NCBI RefSeq assembly: GCF_000016285.1
Contig: NC_011988.1
Location: 866,001-930,000, forward strand
From: Allorhizobium ampelinum S4
Lineage (GTDB): Bacteria; Pseudomonadota; Alphaproteobacteria; Rhizobiales; Rhizobiaceae
Direction: 5' to 3'
Length of the DNA stretch: 64,000 nucleotides
Shown one piece after another: positions 2,991-60,028 of the stretch. Under the pieces are notes generated by a model. The model had not been told where the DNA came from. It ran no database searches and was given only the letters and a program-made list of their open reading frames with translations. A program made the translations under genes and the position numbers. The stretch's first letter is position 1; each line of letters begins with the position of its first letter.

Positions 2991-3034
2991 TTAAAGCGTG
3001 TTGCTTGAGGCTGATAAGCCGCAACACGCTTTAA
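2991..3034 (-). terminator. terminator-like hairpin between pxpA and ycsI
   Basis: Perfect 14-base inverted arms TTAAAGCGTGTTGC (2991-3004) and GCAACACGCTTTAA (3021-3034). Read on the minus strand, the stem is followed at once by GTTTTTGTTT. It overlaps the stop codon of pxpA (3031-3033). It looks like a Rho-independent terminator inside the operon and would lower expression of the genes after pxpA, unless a second promoter lies in the repeat next to it. Confidence 0.65.
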
Positions 3035-3795
3035 GCAGTTACAAATGGCTGGACGGCAATGCCCTCAGCCTCGAAACGCCTGCGGATTTCCTGGGCAATG
3101 GCGACCGCGCCGGGGCTGTCGCCATGCACGCAGATTGATTGCGCTTCCACCTTGATCACGCTGCCATCGATGGCTTCCAGCGTGCCTTGGCGGGCAAGCT
3201 GCACCATGCGACTGGCGATCTTTTTCGCGTCATGCAGCACCGCGCCCGCTTCCCGGCGCGAGACAAGCTGGCCTTGCGGCGTATAGGCGCGGTCGGCAAA
3301 GGCCTCCGCCACGGTGCTCAAGCCGGACGTGCGGGCGAGATCCAGAATAGGAGCGCCTGCGAGACCCATCAGCACCAACGAGGAATCGATGGCTTTGACG
3401 GCATCGATCACCGCCTGGCCCTGACGGGCATCATTGGCGATCCGGTTATAGAGCGCCCCATGCGGCTTGACGTAGGTGACGCGGGTGTTGGCCGCCGCCG
3501 CCATGCCTTTCAGGGCGCCGATCTGGTAGATCACGTCGGCGGTCAGCTCTTCACTGGTCACGTCCATGTCGCGGCGGCCAAAGCCGACGCGATCAGGATA
3601 GGAGACATGCGCGCCGATTGACACGCCATTTTCAGCGGCGGCCTTGACGGTTTTCCAGATGCCGGACGGGTCGCCCGCATGAAAACCGCAGGCGATATTG
3701 GCGCTGGAGACCACGGCCAGCATGGCGCTATCGTCGCCCATGCTCCATGCGCCGTAGCTTTCCCCAAGGTCGCTGTTGAGATCGATGGCAGCCAT
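3031..3795 (-). CDS. pxpA: 5-oxoprolinase subunit A (LamB/YcsF family)
   Basis: A 254-residue protein with the family signatures [12 protein letters not shown] at the N-terminus, [20 protein letters not shown] and CVHGDSPGA near the C-terminus. PxpA works with PxpB and PxpC to hydrolyse 5-oxoproline to glutamate using ATP. The start at 3795 is preceded by an AAGGAAGG ribosome site. The gene follows the NRAMP-like transporter and precedes YcsI and PxpBC on the same strand, the gene set of the Bacillus ycs-kip operon. All canonical motifs are kept, unlike the second PxpA at 13364, so this is the better candidate for true 5-oxoprolinase. Confidence 0.92.
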
Positions 3796-33210: not shown

Positions 33211-33427
33211 CCCCCGCTTCTTCCTGGCCAGTGTGGGTACGGGATTGCAAAGACAGGTGCTTTCTGCGTATAGAAAGCCATGAACCACGGACCCGGTGAA
33301 ATTCCGGGTGGCTATTCTGGCCGCCAATCCGCCAGACAACGCACGACATTTCTGAAACGTGATGATCCGTTTATTCGGCAAGATCTGAGCGTTTGTGAAA
33401 AATCTTCCCCGTTGCGAAACAATCTCC

Positions 33428-34909
33428 ATGAAAAAAATTGAACGATACCAGCGAGACTGGTTCTCGAATATCCGTGGCGATGTCCTGTCGGGCATTGTCG
33501 TGGCCCTCGCCCTTATTCCCGAAGCTATCGGCTTCTCGGTGATTGCCGGGGTCGATCCGAAGATCGGGCTGTTTGCCTCGGTTATCATCGCTTGTGTATC
33601 CGCCTTCTGCGGTGGGCGTCCGGGCATGATTTCCGCTGCCACCGCCGCAACCGCTGTATTGATCGGTGGATTGGTCAAGGATCACGGCATTCAATATTTG
33701 TTTGCCGCAACGGTGCTGATGGGCCTGCTGCAAATTCTGGCGGGCTTCCTGAAGCTGGGGCGGTTGATGCGCTTCGTATCGCGTTCGGTGATGACGGGCT
33801 TCGTCAATGCGCTGGCGATCCTGATCTTCATGGCGCAATTGCCGGAATTGCTTGGTCGTCCACCATCGACGTTCGTGATGATCGGTGTGGCGCTTGCCAT
33901 CATTTATCTCTTCCCGCGCCTCACCAAGGTGGTGCCGTCACCGCTGGTGGCTATCGCCGTTCTGACGGCTGCGACCTGGTGGTTCGGGTGGGATGTCCGC
34001 AGCGTCAGCGATCTCGGCGAATTGCCATCCAGCCTGCCATTGTTCGGTTGGCCGCAGGTGCCGCTGACCTTCGAGACGTTGCAGATCATTTTCCCTTATT
34101 CCATCGCGCTCGCCGCTGTCGGCCTGCTGGAATCGCTGCTGACAGCGCAGATCGTCGATGACATGACGGATACGCAAAGCAACAAGAGCCAGGAATGCAT
34201 CGGCCAGGGCGCAAGCAATATCGCTTCCGGCCTGTTCGGTGGCATGGGCGGCTGCGCCATGATCGGCCAGTCGGTCATCAATGTCTCGTCCGGTGGGCGA
34301 GGGCGCCTTTCGACCTTTGTCGCGGGTGCATTCCTGCTGGTCCTGCTGCTGGTCTTGGACGATATCCTGCGCGTTGTGCCGATGGCGGCTCTGGTGGCGA
34401 TCATGATCATGGTGTCGATTGGCACCTTTTCATGGCGGTCTATCCTCGATCTGCGCCGCAATCCTCCGTCCTCCTCGCTGGTCATGCTGGTGACAGTGGT
34501 GACCGTGGTTGCAACCCATGACCTGTCCAAGGGCGTGCTGGCCGGTGTGCTGCTGTCGGGGGTGTTCTTTGCCGGCAAAGTGGCGCGGATGGTGCATGTG
34601 AAGGCGGAAGACCAAGAGGATGGGTCGAGGCTTTACCGGGTCGATGGCCAGATCTTCTTTGCCTCCGCCGATGCCTTCATTGCCGCCTTCGATTTCGATG
34701 ATGACGTGAAGGCGATTACCATCGACGTCACCCAGGCGCATTTCTGGGACATTACCGCTGTTGGTGCCCTGGATAAGATCGTGCTGAAGTTTCGCGCCAA
34801 GGGGGCCGAGGTCGATGTTAAGGGCATGAACATCGCCAGTGCGCATATGATGGACCGGTTTGCTGTTCACCGCGATCCGCAGGCCGTTCTGTACGCAGGG
34901 GGGCATTGA
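33428..34909 (+). CDS. SulP family anion transporter with STAS domain
   Basis: A 493-residue inner-membrane protein. Residues about 20-385 contain 10 or more hydrophobic segments, with the SulP feature [20 protein letters not shown] near the N-terminus (core [11 protein letters not shown]). Residues about 405-493 form a cytosolic STAS domain. Family members carry sulfate, bicarbonate or dicarboxylates. The start at 33428 (MKKIERYQ) lacks an obvious strong ribosome site. No sulfur genes are adjacent; the structured RNA at about 34998 follows. Confidence 0.88.
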
Positions 34910-34997
34910 CGGTTCGAGCAATTCGCTACGCGCATAGCGCATGGCTGGCGTGCGAAAAACTGCCTCGAAAATGTGCGAAAATCAGGTATAACTCTTT

Positions 34998-35163
34998 TCA
35001 TCGAAGCGATGCATCCTCCTCCCGCTGAGCTTCGATACACCGGGCCAGCTTCTCCTCCTCCCAGAGCGGCCCGTCGGAATGACGGAACTCCTCCTCCCAG
35101 CCGTCGTTCGGTTCTTTTCGAAAAGCCTGCCGCACCTCCTCCCGCGGCAGGCTTTTCGTTTTT
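34998..35163 (+). ncRNA. cuckoo-type RNA with four CCUCCUCCC hairpins
   Basis: Four hairpins in a row, each presenting CCTCCTCCC in its loop. Stem 1 is TCGAAGC/GCTTCGA (35001-35035, motif 35015-35023). Stem 2 is CGGGCC/GGCCCG (35041-35073, motif 35054-35062). Stem 3 is AATGACGG/CCGTCGTT with one G-U pair (35078-35108, motif 35090-35098). Stem 4 has perfect 15-base arms (35119-35158, motif 35135-35143). The last stem is followed by TTTTT (35159-35163) and works as a terminator. This matches the anti-Shine-Dalgarno 'cuckoo' family (CcsR1-4 of Rhodobacter, related rhizobial RNAs). A TATAAC at 34987-34992 could be the -10 element. Ends are approximate. Confidence 0.85.
35144..35163 (+). terminator. 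Rho-independent terminator formed by cuckoo hairpin 4
   Basis: The 3' arm of the fourth hairpin (35144-35158, 15 paired bases with 35119-35133) is followed by TTTTT. It ends the RNA 14 bases before the end of the convergent cysG gene and may also insulate the two transcripts. Confidence 0.75.
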
Positions 35164-35177
35164 GGAGGTGTTTTCTT

Positions 35178-36659
35178 TCAATAGGCCGCCAATTGCTGTT
35201 CTGCCTGTTGGGGATAAGCACAGGGCATCGCTGTGCCTGGCTGGGCAAAGGCGGTGCCGACGCCGATGAGGATCGGGTTGCTGACGCCAAGTATAGCGAC
35301 CGCATCGGCCAGTTCGCCGACCGTTCCCCGCCAACTCGTCTGTTGCGCACGGCTGATTGAGGTCATCGCCACCGCTTGCGTGTTGGAAGCCATGCCTGCG
35401 GCCATCAGATTGTCGGCAATCCGGCCTGCCATCCGACCACCCATGTAGAAGATTGTCGTGACGGATGGATCGGCCATATCGCGCCAGTTGAGGCTTTCCG
35501 GCAGGTCGCCATGCCGGGAATGGCCCGTCACCAATCGCAGCGATTGAGCGTGATCGCGGTGGGTGAGTGAAATACCAAGCGCCGCCGCCATGGCGCTGGC
35601 TGAGGTGATGCCGGGTACGACATCCACGGCAATGCCCTCATCCGCTAGCCGGGAGATTTCCTCGCCTGCTCGCCCGAAAATCATCGGATCGCCGGATTTC
35701 AGCCGCACCACACGTTTTCCAGCCTTGGCAAACCGCACCATCATCTCATTGATATCGTCCTGCTTACAGCTTTCCCGCCCGCCACGCTTGCCAACCAGCA
35801 TGCGTTTGGCTTCACGGCGGGCAAGTTCGAGAACGTCAGGGGAGACGAGATCGTCAAACAGGATGACATCGGCGGCTTGCAGCGCCCGTACGGCTTTCAG
35901 GGTCAATAGTTCCGCATCGCCCGGCCCCGCGCCGACCAGTGTGACCCGCCCCAGTGCCGGGGCGTTTGCGAGCCTGGCGGTCTCGTTCAGCAGCAAATCC
36001 TCCTCATTGTCCTGCGGCGGTGCATTGCCAGCGAAGGCGCGGTCCACGAAGCGCTCCCAAAAGGCGCGGCGCGGTGCGCCGGGTGCCAGCTTCTCATTGA
36101 TCCGGCCACGGATCGCTTGCGCCAGTTCTGCCCATGGTTTGAGCGCTGGCGGCAGCAGCGTTTCAATCCGCCGCCGGATCGCCTGCCCGAGGATTGGTGC
36201 CGCGCCATCGGTGGAAATCGCCACCACGACCGGCGAGCGGTTGACGATGGAGCCGAACTGGAATTGGCAATAGGCGGGCTTGTCGATGACATTGACCGGG
36301 ACGCCCGCAGCTTTCGCCGCGCAATAAAACGCCTTGGCCTCGTCCTCCGTCTCGCAATCGGCAAGCGCCAAAGCGGCGTTTTCAAAAATGCCGATATGCC
36401 AGCAATGGGGATGAAGGACCATGCGGTCCGGCTCTTCAAGGAGGGTGCGGAAGGTATCGGACAATTCGTCCTCGGCGCAGAACACCTCGACATCAGCGCC
36501 GCAGGCAGCCAGCAATTCCGCCTTCCAGGCTGCCCCATCCGAACCACCGGCGACGATGACGCGCTTGCCCTCCAGCGCCCAGAACACCGGCAGTTTTGCG
36601 AGCGGCGCGACCCGTTCCGGGCGGCGGGAGTTATTCTGCGGCAAGGATTTGAACGGCAT
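35178..36659 (-). CDS. cysG: siroheme synthase (CysG)
   Basis: A 493-residue multifunctional enzyme. The N-terminal half is the precorrin-2 dehydrogenase/ferrochelatase part (KRVIVAGGSDGAAWKAELL, near residue 33). The C-terminal half is uroporphyrinogen-III methyltransferase: LVGAGPGDAELLTLKA near 240, GKRGGRESCKQ, and KSGDPMIFGRAGEE. It makes siroheme, the cofactor of the nitrite reductase encoded upstream in the same operon. Start 36659 is chosen at the conserved N-terminus; it overlaps the nitrate reductase gene by 29 bases. The frame upstream of that is a shadow. Confidence 0.93.
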   Translation of the reverse strand: MPFKSLPQNNSRRPERVAPLAKLPVFWALEGKRVIVAGGSDGAAWKAELLAACGADVEVFCAEDELSDTFRTLLEEPDRMVLHPHCWHIGIFENAALALADCETEDEAKAFYCAAKAAGVPVNVIDKPAYCQFQFGSIVNRSPVVVAISTDGAAPILGQAIRRRIETLLPPALKPWAELAQAIRGRINEKLAPGAPRRAFWERFVDRAFAGNAPPQDNEEDLLLNETARLANAPALGRVTLVGAGPGDAELLTLKAVRALQAADVILFDDLVSPDVLELARREAKRMLVGKRGGRESCKQDDINEMMVRFAKAGKRVVRLKSGDPMIFGRAGEEISRLADEGIAVDVVPGITSASAMAAALGISLTHRDHAQSLRLVTGHSRHGDLPESLNWRDMADPSVTTIFYMGGRMAGRIADNLMAAGMASNTQAVAMTSISRAQQTSWRGTVGELADAVAILGVSNPILIGVGTAFAQPGTAMPCAYPQQAEQQLAAY

Positions 36660-39288
36660 CGATAATCCTCCTGATTTCGGCGCGGCAGGAGCCGCAATTG
36701 GTTCCGGCTGACAGGGTCTGACCGACGGCTTCGACCGAGCCGCAGCCGCCCCTGACAGCACTGGTGATCTGGTTGATCCCCACGGAGAAACACGAACAGA
36801 CAATTGCCCCCGGATCGATCTGGCCAGCGCCGGGCCGCCCGGCAATCAGCGCCAGCCGGGTGCGGCGATCGGTAAAGTCGTCGTCAAGCCGGGCGCTGGC
36901 CCAATTGCGCGACACCGCAACCGGTTGGCTTGCCATGAACAGCGCGGCGCAAAGCCTGCCTGCGTCAAAAAATGCCAGCCGGACATCGCCACTGGCATGG
37001 TCGCTATAGCCGATCATCTCTGCGGTGGCGGGTACGGCAAGCGCGGTTCTCGCCCAGTTTTCCCAATCCTGGCCATTTTCGAAAGCCAGCTCCAGCCGCC
37101 AGCCATGCTCGGCCTTGGCCAAAGCCCAATAGGATGCGTCCAGCGCCTGCGGCTTATGAGCTGAGACGGCAAAACCATAGGCGATTGCCGCATAGGGCTT
37201 TGCCGCAACACCCACATGTTTCAGCGCTGGTTGGCCGGAAACCGGGTCCACCCGCGAGGGTACGAGGCTATCGATGCGGGCCAGTGAGGCGGTTTCGCCG
37301 GTCCAGTGCATTGGCACGAAAATGGCGCCACGGCTCTGGCGGCTGGTCAAAAGGGCGCGAACGATCACCCGGCTGCCGGTCTGGCTGGAAATCTCCACCA
37401 GTTCCGCATCGGCAATGCCGAGATTGGCGGCGTCCAGCGGGTGGATTTCCGCGAAGGGTTCGGCCAGATGCGCTGACAGCCTCGCGCTTTTTGCCGTCCG
37501 TGTCATCGTATGCCAATGATCGCGCACCCGCCCGGTATTGAGCGTGAGGGGAAAGTCCTGGCTTGCCCTATCCGGTATTGCAGTTTCGCAAGCAATGAAA
37601 CGCGCTTTGCCATCGGGATGATAAAAGCCGCCATTGGCGAAAAACCGGCTGTCCGCCGCTGGCTCGCCCTGTCTCTGTGGCCATTGGAAGGGGGCAAGCG
37701 CCTGATAGTCTGTTTCCGTGATCGCGCCGTAAGCGCCGATATTGAAATCGCGGGTGCCAGTATTTTCAAAACCCGATAGGGCGGCATGTTCAGCAAAGAT
37801 GTCGGCGGGTGACTGATAGCGAAAGGCCTTGCCAAAGCCCATGCGGCGGCCAATTTCCGCCATCTGCCACCAGTCTGCCCTGGCCTCGCCGGGGGCCGGT
37901 TTGAAGGCTCGCTGGCGGGAAATCCGCCGCTCGGAATTGGTAACGGTGCCGGATTTTTCACCCCAGCCAGCCGCTGGCAGCAGCACATGCGCCAGCTTTG
38001 CCGTATCGGTATCGGCCTGCATGTCGGAGACGACAACAAAGGGGCAGGCGGCAATCGCCGCCTTGACGGCATCGGCATCGGGCATGGAGACAACAGGATT
38101 GGTGGACATGATCCACAGCGCCTTGATCTTGCCATCGGCCACCGCCTTGAACATGTCCACGGCCTTCAGGCCCGGCTTGTCGGCCATGGTGGGGGAGGCC
38201 CAGAATCGCTGCACGCGATCCCGATCCCTGGGATTGCCCAGTTCCATATGGGCGGCCAGCATGTTGGCGAGGCCACCAACCTCGCGTCCGCCCATGGCAT
38301 TCGGCTGGCCAGTCAGCGAAAACGGTCCCATGCCGGGCCTGCCGATTCGGCCTGTGGCCAGATGGCAATTGATGATCGCATTGACTTTGTCCGTGCCAAG
38401 CGATGACTGGTTGACGCCCTGGCTATAGCAGGTCACGGTTTTTTCCGTTGCGGCAAACAGCTGGAAAAACTGCCGCAACTGCATGGCGGGCAGGCCGGTC
38501 TTCTCCATCAAATCGCCAAGCGATTGACCGGCAGCGGCGGCAAACGCGTCCGCAAAGCCGTTTGTATGGGCGGCAATATAGGATTGGTCGATGCTGCGGT
38601 TTTCGACCAGATGCGCCAGCAAACCGTTGAACAGTGCCACATCGCCATCCGGACGGATGGAAAGATGCAGGTCGGCAATGTCTGAGGTTGCGGTGCGGCG
38701 CGGATCGATCACCACCACTTTCAGGCCGGGGCGCTTGGCCTTTTCCGCAGCAATCCGCTGATAAAGCACCGGATGGCACCAGCCCATATTGGATCCCACA
38801 AGCACGATGAGATCGGCCAGTTCCAGGTCGCGGTAGGTGCCGGGAACGGTATCGGAGCCGAAGGCCCGCTTATGGCCTGCGACCGAAGACGCCATGCAGA
38901 GACGGGAATTGGTATCGATATTGGCCGAGCCGATAAACCCTTTCATCAGCTTGTTGGCGACGTAATAATCCTCGGTCAGCAATTGGCCGGAGAGATAGAA
39001 GGCGACCGAATCCGGGCCATGCTCGGCAATACTGCGGGAAAACCTATCGGCAACGAGATCGAGCGCCATATCCCAACTTTGGCGCTCGCCGTAAACGGTC
39101 GGAGTGAGCGCCCGGCCATCCAGATCCAGCGTTTCACCCAGCGCCGAGCCCTTGGAACAGAGCCGGCCAAAATTGGCCGGATGATCCGGGTCGCCCTTGA
39201 TGCTGACGGTACCATTTTCCTCGACCTTGGCAATCACGCCGCAGCCGACGCCGCAATAGGGGCAGGTGGTTTTCGTCTCGCCGGACAT
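36631..39288 (-). CDS. nasA: assimilatory nitrate reductase catalytic subunit
   Basis: An 885-residue molybdopterin enzyme of the NasA/NarB type, reducing nitrate to nitrite in the cytosol. The N-terminal [4Fe-4S] site is in TTCPYCGVGCGV. The C-terminal extension carries a BFD-like [2Fe-2S] site, CSCFSVGI with a later CGSC, typical of NasA with an added electron-entry domain. The start at 39288 (MSGETK) has GGAG about eight bases upstream; a GTG at 39297 overlapping the nirD stop is the alternative. Followed by cysG with a 29-base overlap. Confidence 0.94.
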   Translation of the reverse strand: MSGETKTTCPYCGVGCGVIAKVEENGTVSIKGDPDHPANFGRLCSKGSALGETLDLDGRALTPTVYGERQSWDMALDLVADRFSRSIAEHGPDSVAFYLSGQLLTEDYYVANKLMKGFIGSANIDTNSRLCMASSVAGHKRAFGSDTVPGTYRDLELADLIVLVGSNMGWCHPVLYQRIAAEKAKRPGLKVVVIDPRRTATSDIADLHLSIRPDGDVALFNGLLAHLVENRSIDQSYIAAHTNGFADAFAAAAGQSLGDLMEKTGLPAMQLRQFFQLFAATEKTVTCYSQGVNQSSLGTDKVNAIINCHLATGRIGRPGMGPFSLTGQPNAMGGREVGGLANMLAAHMELGNPRDRDRVQRFWASPTMADKPGLKAVDMFKAVADGKIKALWIMSTNPVVSMPDADAVKAAIAACPFVVVSDMQADTDTAKLAHVLLPAAGWGEKSGTVTNSERRISRQRAFKPAPGEARADWWQMAEIGRRMGFGKAFRYQSPADIFAEHAALSGFENTGTRDFNIGAYGAITETDYQALAPFQWPQRQGEPAADSRFFANGGFYHPDGKARFIACETAIPDRASQDFPLTLNTGRVRDHWHTMTRTAKSARLSAHLAEPFAEIHPLDAANLGIADAELVEISSQTGSRVIVRALLTSRQSRGAIFVPMHWTGETASLARIDSLVPSRVDPVSGQPALKHVGVAAKPYAAIAYGFAVSAHKPQALDASYWALAKAEHGWRLELAFENGQDWENWARTALAVPATAEMIGYSDHASGDVRLAFFDAGRLCAALFMASQPVAVSRNWASARLDDDFTDRRTRLALIAGRPGAGQIDPGAIVCSCFSVGINQITSAVRGGCGSVEAVGQTLSAGTNCGSCRAEIRRIIDAVQILAAE

Positions 39289-59755: not shown

Positions 59756-59828
59756 CCCTCTCTTCGGCGAAATGAGATTTCGCCGGGCATTGACCTTAGT
59801 GCCAGTTCGGCAGTAATCTTCTCTCATT

Positions 59829-59932
59829 CACCAGGGGTGTCCCGCAAGGGGCTGAGATTCCGCTAGGCTTAACAGCAGCGCGGTGACCCGTTGAACCTGA
59901 TCCAGTTCATACTGGCGTAGGGACGGTGCAAG
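59829..59932 (+). ncRNA. TPP riboswitch (THI element)
   Basis: Conserved segments are present in order: CAGGGGTG at about 59832, GGGGCTGAGATT at about 59848, GACCCGTTGAACCTGATC at about 59885, and GCGTAGGGACGG ending at about 59926. It binds thiamine pyrophosphate and controls the thiC operon starting at 60047. No T-run terminator follows, so translation control is likely. An imperfect direct repeat (CCCGTATTGGGTTG and CCCGTTATGGGTTG, about 59949-59981) lies between it and thiC. Confidence 0.93.
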
Positions 59933-60028
59933 CGCTGCAAAACCATGGCCCGTATTGGGTTGGCCCGTTATGGGTTGGTCAGGCGTCTTTCCATCATTCC
60001 GGCTATCATGACTGGGTCTCCAACCTGA

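Follow-up and report, generated by a model that had tools for sequence, protein, structure and literature searches.

A four-hairpin ar14/cuckoo-type small RNA gene of Allorhizobium ampelinum S4 with a conserved, putatively LsrB/VtlR-dependent promoter

The 64-kb stretch of the A. ampelinum S4 genome analysed here (the window) bears on its plus strand, at 34999–35163, a gene for a small RNA with four hairpins (S4 RNA), recognised by its fold and by the Rfam family ar14, its two ends being placed by reference to SmelA099 of S. meliloti. S4 RNA is a real and well-conserved member of a known family (ar14/cuckoo, SmelA099 type) from root-associated bacteria. With a probability of about three in four, we read it as a trans-acting RNA that has a promoter of its own, probably activated by LsrB/VtlR, and whose loops would block the Shine-Dalgarno sites of several mRNAs.

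The motif CCTCCTCCC has exactly four copies in the window, always on the plus strand and within 129 bases (at 35015, 35054, 35090 and 35135); in shuffled sequences the mean count was 0.65, and four copies, with no clustering demanded, were reached in 1 of 100. Region 34996–35164 is predicted to fold into four hairpins (−70.1 kcal/mol, z −6.2), and none of 200 shuffled sequences folded as well. In this fold all four motifs remain unpaired, one in each loop of hairpins H1 (35000–35036), H2 (35041–35073), H3 (35077–35109) and H4 (35119–35158, or to 35163 with the U run), and the four stems differ from one another. This agrees with an earlier sequence-only reading of the region, which had described four hairpins exposing a common anti-Shine-Dalgarno motif. 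The same reading took the last stem for a terminator. H4 does possess a 15-bp stem followed by UUUUU, but the terminator scan, which permits loops of 3–8 only, listed nothing at H4 with its loop of 10, so that we regard it as a probable terminator.

Conservation was studied in 16 copies of the S4 RNA locus, comprising the window, 13 further genomes in which the RNA is linked to a gene for a SulP-type permease, one genome where the locus is split between contigs (G004) and one where it occurs without SulP (G007). In these copies 93.8% of the 704 stem cells pair, and two-sided changes are present at 15 of the 44 pairs, a number reached by none of 500 shuffles; slid structures gave at most 8, a control that is tilted in favour of the structure, since the latter was derived from the window sequence. 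In 32 selected four-hairpin loci, pairing was 90.7% and two-sided changes affected 22 of 44 pairs (0 of 500 shuffles). Every cell of H3 pairs in the 16 copies, with compensation at 4 of its 9 pairs, while H4 varies little. The helices of H2 are the least well paired (90.0% and 72.5% in the 16 copies, 75.7% in the 32-locus set), which is perhaps partly an alignment effect. The four loops are conserved and the stems change in a compensatory manner, thus bearing out the earlier proposal that selection acts on the loop and the fold; a loop motif kept with compensatory stem changes in relatives is just what was looked for and found. An open reading frame running through the hairpins on the plus strand was rejected as a real gene; the stems covary instead.

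The covariance model of ar14 (RF02344) matches 35035–35159 with 96.3 bits against a gathering cut-off of 58.8, thereby covering H2–H4 and leaving H1 outside the match. When the whole S4 genome was searched (6,320,946 bases, 7 contigs), six ar14 loci, including S4 RNA, exceeded the cut-off, and none did so among 14 control genomes. Cuckoo RNAs were reportedly defined in 2015 as two to four adjacent hairpins with CCUCCUCCC in each loop and variable stems. S4 RNA has all of these: adjacent hairpins, CCUCCUCCC in each of the loops and stems of varying sequence, and the loop motif and the range of 2–4 hairpin modules are described for cuckoo-type RNAs in the literature (PMC3927594).

A search of plasmid records with 34910–35178 as a query returned pSymA of S. 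meliloti 1021 (1328169–1328415, query positions 6–256, 75.4% identity). There are plasmid records with higher scores, such as Pararhizobium with 79.9%, but to our knowledge none of these relatives has a mapped transcript. On pSymA, published tables place SmelA099, also called smrA6 (SMa6570), at 1328175–1328334 on the minus strand as a 160-nt transcript detected by deep sequencing, and it is reported to form four hairpins that carry CCUCCUCCC in their loops (PMC3927594). It thus resembles S4 RNA in its four CCUCCUCCC-loop hairpins and is 75% identical to it over the matched stretch, and the homology extends through the promoter, where the two loci have the same regulatory box and the same 48-nt spacing. 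Judged by these alignments, SmelA099 is the nearest mapped relative of S4 RNA. The surroundings are different: no SulP gene was recognised near SmelA099, and the large opposite-strand ORF downstream of it is a different gene from that in S4. As a separate observation, two loci of one relative (G015, contig C1 at about 1485966 and contig C4 at about 232392) lie on two replicons, are identical over the stretch compared and have three motifs only; there, hairpin 2 contributes its 5′ arm and hairpin 3, directly after it, its 3′ arm, as though one unit had been lost by recombination between the repeated loops.

Two other groups of RNAs deserve comparison. NfeR1 (Smr14C2) and the ar14 family (RF02344) have the loop motif and the covariance model in common with S4 RNA, but NfeR1 forms three hairpins and is reported to carry an NtrC site and a different LsrB box, TGCA-N6-GCAT; like the activation proposed here, its own is attributed to LsrB (PMC10746234). 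CcsR1–4 of Rhodobacter sphaeroides, encoded with CcaF1 at the CIN1 locus, are tandem anti-Shine-Dalgarno hairpins as well; RS0680a is described as a two-hairpin RNA of this kind (PMC3927594), and the CcsR RNAs are reported to share with a DUF1127 gene a transcript that starts at an RpoHI/RpoHII promoter and is processed into separate RNAs by RNase E (PMC10253847). S4 RNA departs from them in having no DUF1127 gene beside it and, probably, another type of promoter. The assignment to a "cuckoo/CcsR type" made from the sequence stands in its first half, a cuckoo/ar14 RNA with four anti-Shine-Dalgarno loops, while the nearest relatives are the rhizobial four-hairpin RNAs of the SmelA099 type.

The lack of an adjacent DUF1127 gene, which had been pointed out from the sequence, was confirmed: the S4 genome encodes six DUF1127 domains, three of which are found some 270 bases or less from one of the other ar14 matches, and S4 RNA has none nearby. 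Around the related loci, a similarity search with three of the S4 domains detected a DUF1127-like gene within 1 kb at 20 of the 36 four-hairpin loci outside the SulP-linked set, 0 of the 16 within it, 31 of the 67 three-hairpin loci and 2 of the 6 others. Since such a gene is also missing within 1 kb at 16 of those 36 four-hairpin loci, its absence at S4 RNA is not unusual.

As a promoter, the sequence-only reading had proposed CTCGAA (34964–34969, plus strand) and TATAAC (34987–34992, the −10 box); the spacer between the two measures 17 nt. The alignment of the 16 copies showed an unalignable spacer behind SulP; then conservation begins abruptly at ATTCGCTACGCGCATAGCGCATGGCTG and extends up to the TATA, which is present in 16 of 16 copies. 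The −10 part of the proposal was therefore upheld. CTCGAA, present in only 9 of the 16 copies and replaced in the other seven by CTGTTA, CTTTCT or CTCGTT, was rejected as a conserved −35 element. What is conserved instead is an upstream box, GCAT-N3-TG-N3-T, which at 34939–34951 on the plus strand has a perfect match (GCATGGCTGGCGT) starting 48 nt ahead of the −10 box; 15 of the 16 copies have the perfect box (the exception is G011). These data bear directly on the view that S4 RNA is a CcsR-like stress RNA made from an RpoH-type promoter. CTCGAA, the 17-nt spacer and TATAAC are indeed there, and the Rhodobacter RNAs are reported to use promoters of this class (PMC10253847), but the divergence of the −35 in seven copies, set against the box in 15 of 16, makes this explanation quite improbable.

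The box corresponds to that proposed for VtlR in Brucella abortus and A. tumefaciens (PMC7486931), and the same box is reported at −61 to −49 in the LsrB-dependent abcR1 promoter (PMC8844928). In S4 RNA it spans about −60 to −48 and represents a predicted LsrB/VtlR site. In SmelA099, whose sequenced 5′ end corresponds to position 3082 of locus L339, the box starts at 3023, i.e., at −59 to −47. In G049, another genome with the S4 RNA locus, the first motif is at chromid position 913,529, and a start 15–16 nt ahead of it would fall at about 913,513–913,514 on the plus strand. For Allorhizobium vitis T60/94, dRNA-seq has been published (PMC10469942). AbcR1 and VrsA, other RNAs activated by LsrB/VtlR, have the consensus box in common with S4 RNA, whereas the RNAs themselves are different, and binding to their boxes is reported to have been demonstrated by EMSA, as against the predicted binding for S4 RNA.

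The box was also looked for in the wider family. From 133 loci found with ar14 and BLAST we obtained 125 distinct motif clusters, all in genomes of the same genus, the others being duplicates or having no qualifying cluster. A perfect box lies 74–77 nt ahead of the first motif in 61 of the 125, the reversed box at that distance in none, and the background is 0.37 boxes per kb on both strands. When the seven fixed letters were permuted in 419 ways and scored on the 124 loci with a long enough upstream region, no permutation reached 61, the maximum being 19. These loci are related and thus not independent of one another; when the upstream sequences were grouped at 70% identity, the box was present in 19 of 47 groups. 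By class, it was found at 49 of the 52 loci with four hairpins, at 11 of the 67 with three and at 1 of the 6 remaining loci; as the classes were assigned from motif spacing, an extra downstream motif may misplace a locus. At 53 of the 61 box-bearing loci, a distance of exactly 48 nt separates the start of the box from the TAT of the −10 box, and box and spacing alike recur in four plasmid-borne relatives (from S. meliloti, Pararhizobium, Shinella and Rhizobium). In all 61 loci the box is directly followed by GC (offsets 13–14), with a T at offset 26; these positions beyond the published seven letters perhaps belong to a longer LsrB site. We did not find the LsrB box of the four-hairpin class described in the literature searched; a 2021 paper on LsrB and sRNAs of A. 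tumefaciens may cover it.

In the S4 genome, a LysR gene adjoins a tandem pair of ar15 (AbcR) RNAs, as lsrB does in S. meliloti. Because none of the 25 NCBIfam models listed for this gene reached its cut-off, it is synteny that points to its being lsrB. There are five ar15 copies (G000:C2:52289-52397, C1:198928-199036, C3:122627-122736, C6:2608532-2608837), three of the five outside the two largest contigs; contig C2, with one copy, is presumably the Ti plasmid.

The sequence-only reading had placed the RNA after an anion transporter gene, and this is true in the window. The SulP-type sulfate permease gene (33428–34909, plus strand; PF00916, PF01740) is preceded by a sul1 RNA (33286–33341, plus strand; RF03058, 75.1 bits), and the convergent neighbour behind S4 RNA is the siroheme synthase gene cysG (35178–36845, minus strand; NF007922 over cut-off). 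A second sul1 RNA of the S4 genome (G000:C5:58257-58309) is found some 1.6 kb upstream of another SulP gene, and sul1 is also present ahead of SulP in 18 of the 20 loci scanned from relatives; the window also has a TPP riboswitch at 59823–59941 (RF00059, 69.3 bits).

Synteny was followed in 63 same-genus genomes, 39 of which gave SulP matches with E ≤ 1e-170, the loci being taken from the best 30 matches. Among these, a motif cluster directly follows SulP in 14 of 14 loci with full flanks and 78–100% SulP identity, but lies within 1.5 kb in 0 of 15 with 72–77% identity; the thirtieth locus (G004) is cut by a contig end, its RNA standing behind a SulP fragment on another contig. In G007, where no SulP match was found, the box, the −10 and four hairpins are kept directly behind a gene for an FAD oxidoreductase, the gene that precedes SulP in the window. 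Among 80 SulP loci in named records, some of which end soon after SulP (e.g., L074), a cluster lies directly downstream only in Rhizobium paknamense (L075), and a motif pair occurs elsewhere in three distant loci. The SulP adjacency is thus a lineage-specific, local position and looks incidental, and a SulP-coupled RNA was rejected.

The same comparison weighs on the possibility that S4 RNA derives from the 3′UTR of the SulP mRNA, being co-transcribed under sul1, released by an RNase and feeding back on sulfur/nitrate metabolism. Its position directly behind SulP on the same strand with no terminator listed between them, the complete linkage in the close clade and the sul1 RNA in front of SulP would all suit such an origin. 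It is nevertheless unlikely: the RNA and its box persist in G007, 15 genomes have SulP (72–77% identity) without the RNA in the adjoining 1.5 kb, the spacer is unalignable whereas the box and the −10 are conserved, and the SulP start region contains no Shine-Dalgarno-like target stretch, so that SulP was also rejected as a target. Read-through from SulP may be a second source of S4 RNA.

A further view holds that the main role of the locus is to end transcription between SulP and the convergent gene, with the RNA as a silent duplicate. H4 does lie between convergent genes, and in S. meliloti a single copy of NfeR1 out of six was detected by Northern blot under the conditions tested (PMC7143759), for which reason S4 RNA could be weakly expressed or silent. 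For termination, however, one hairpin would suffice, yet conservation extends to all four loops, to the covarying stems and to the box, and the RNA stays while the downstream gene varies (cysG or a nasA-like gene, where recognised). We consider this very improbable.

As for candidate targets, GGGAGGAG-N3-10-ATG occurs 43 times in the S4 genome versus 6 for the reversed pattern, an excess that mainly consists of ordinary Shine-Dalgarno sites; at least one of the hits (C6:2043927, minus strand) comes from a cuckoo locus read on its opposite strand. In the first 30 of the 43 places, 7 frames are shorter than 150 aa, and the other 23 include 11 parts of ABC transporters by Pfam; a control with another Shine-Dalgarno pattern gave 1 ABC part among 7 distinct ORFs of at least 150 aa, a sample too small to settle enrichment. 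In S. meliloti, NfeR1 is reported to silence ntrB and two transporter mRNAs and to need LsrB (PMC10746234, PMC8844928); its loops were reportedly mutated in a two-plasmid reporter assay (PMC10746234).

Taken together, these data allow us to suggest how S4 RNA would work. LsrB/VtlR, a LysR-type regulator, would activate the RNA's own promoter to give a transcript of about 160–165 nt ended by H4. The four CCUCCUCCC loops would serve as interchangeable seeds pairing with GGGAGGAGG-like Shine-Dalgarno sequences, and such pairing would block ribosome loading on several mRNAs, most plausibly those for solute uptake. As far as alignment can tell, the box, the promoter and the RNA behave as one cassette while the neighbouring genes change. 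It appears somewhat favoured that the whole four-hairpin cuckoo branch forms one redox-linked LsrB/VtlR regulon with a fixed distance of 48 nt from the box to the −10; the cassette would have settled beside DUF1127, SulP and other genes, and one LysR regulator would then drive several equivalent anti-Shine-Dalgarno RNAs at once. With six ar14-type anti-Shine-Dalgarno RNAs in the genome, three of which, including S4 RNA, have a predicted LsrB/VtlR box, this makes a testable circuit, and the shared promoter box is the part most worth following up. In S. meliloti, LsrB is reported to be responsive to reactive oxygen species (PMC8844928). If it drives these RNAs, oxidative signals would be tied to the silencing of nutrient-uptake genes via redundant loops, and such wiring, if true, would be part of the reason why several copies of the family are retained.
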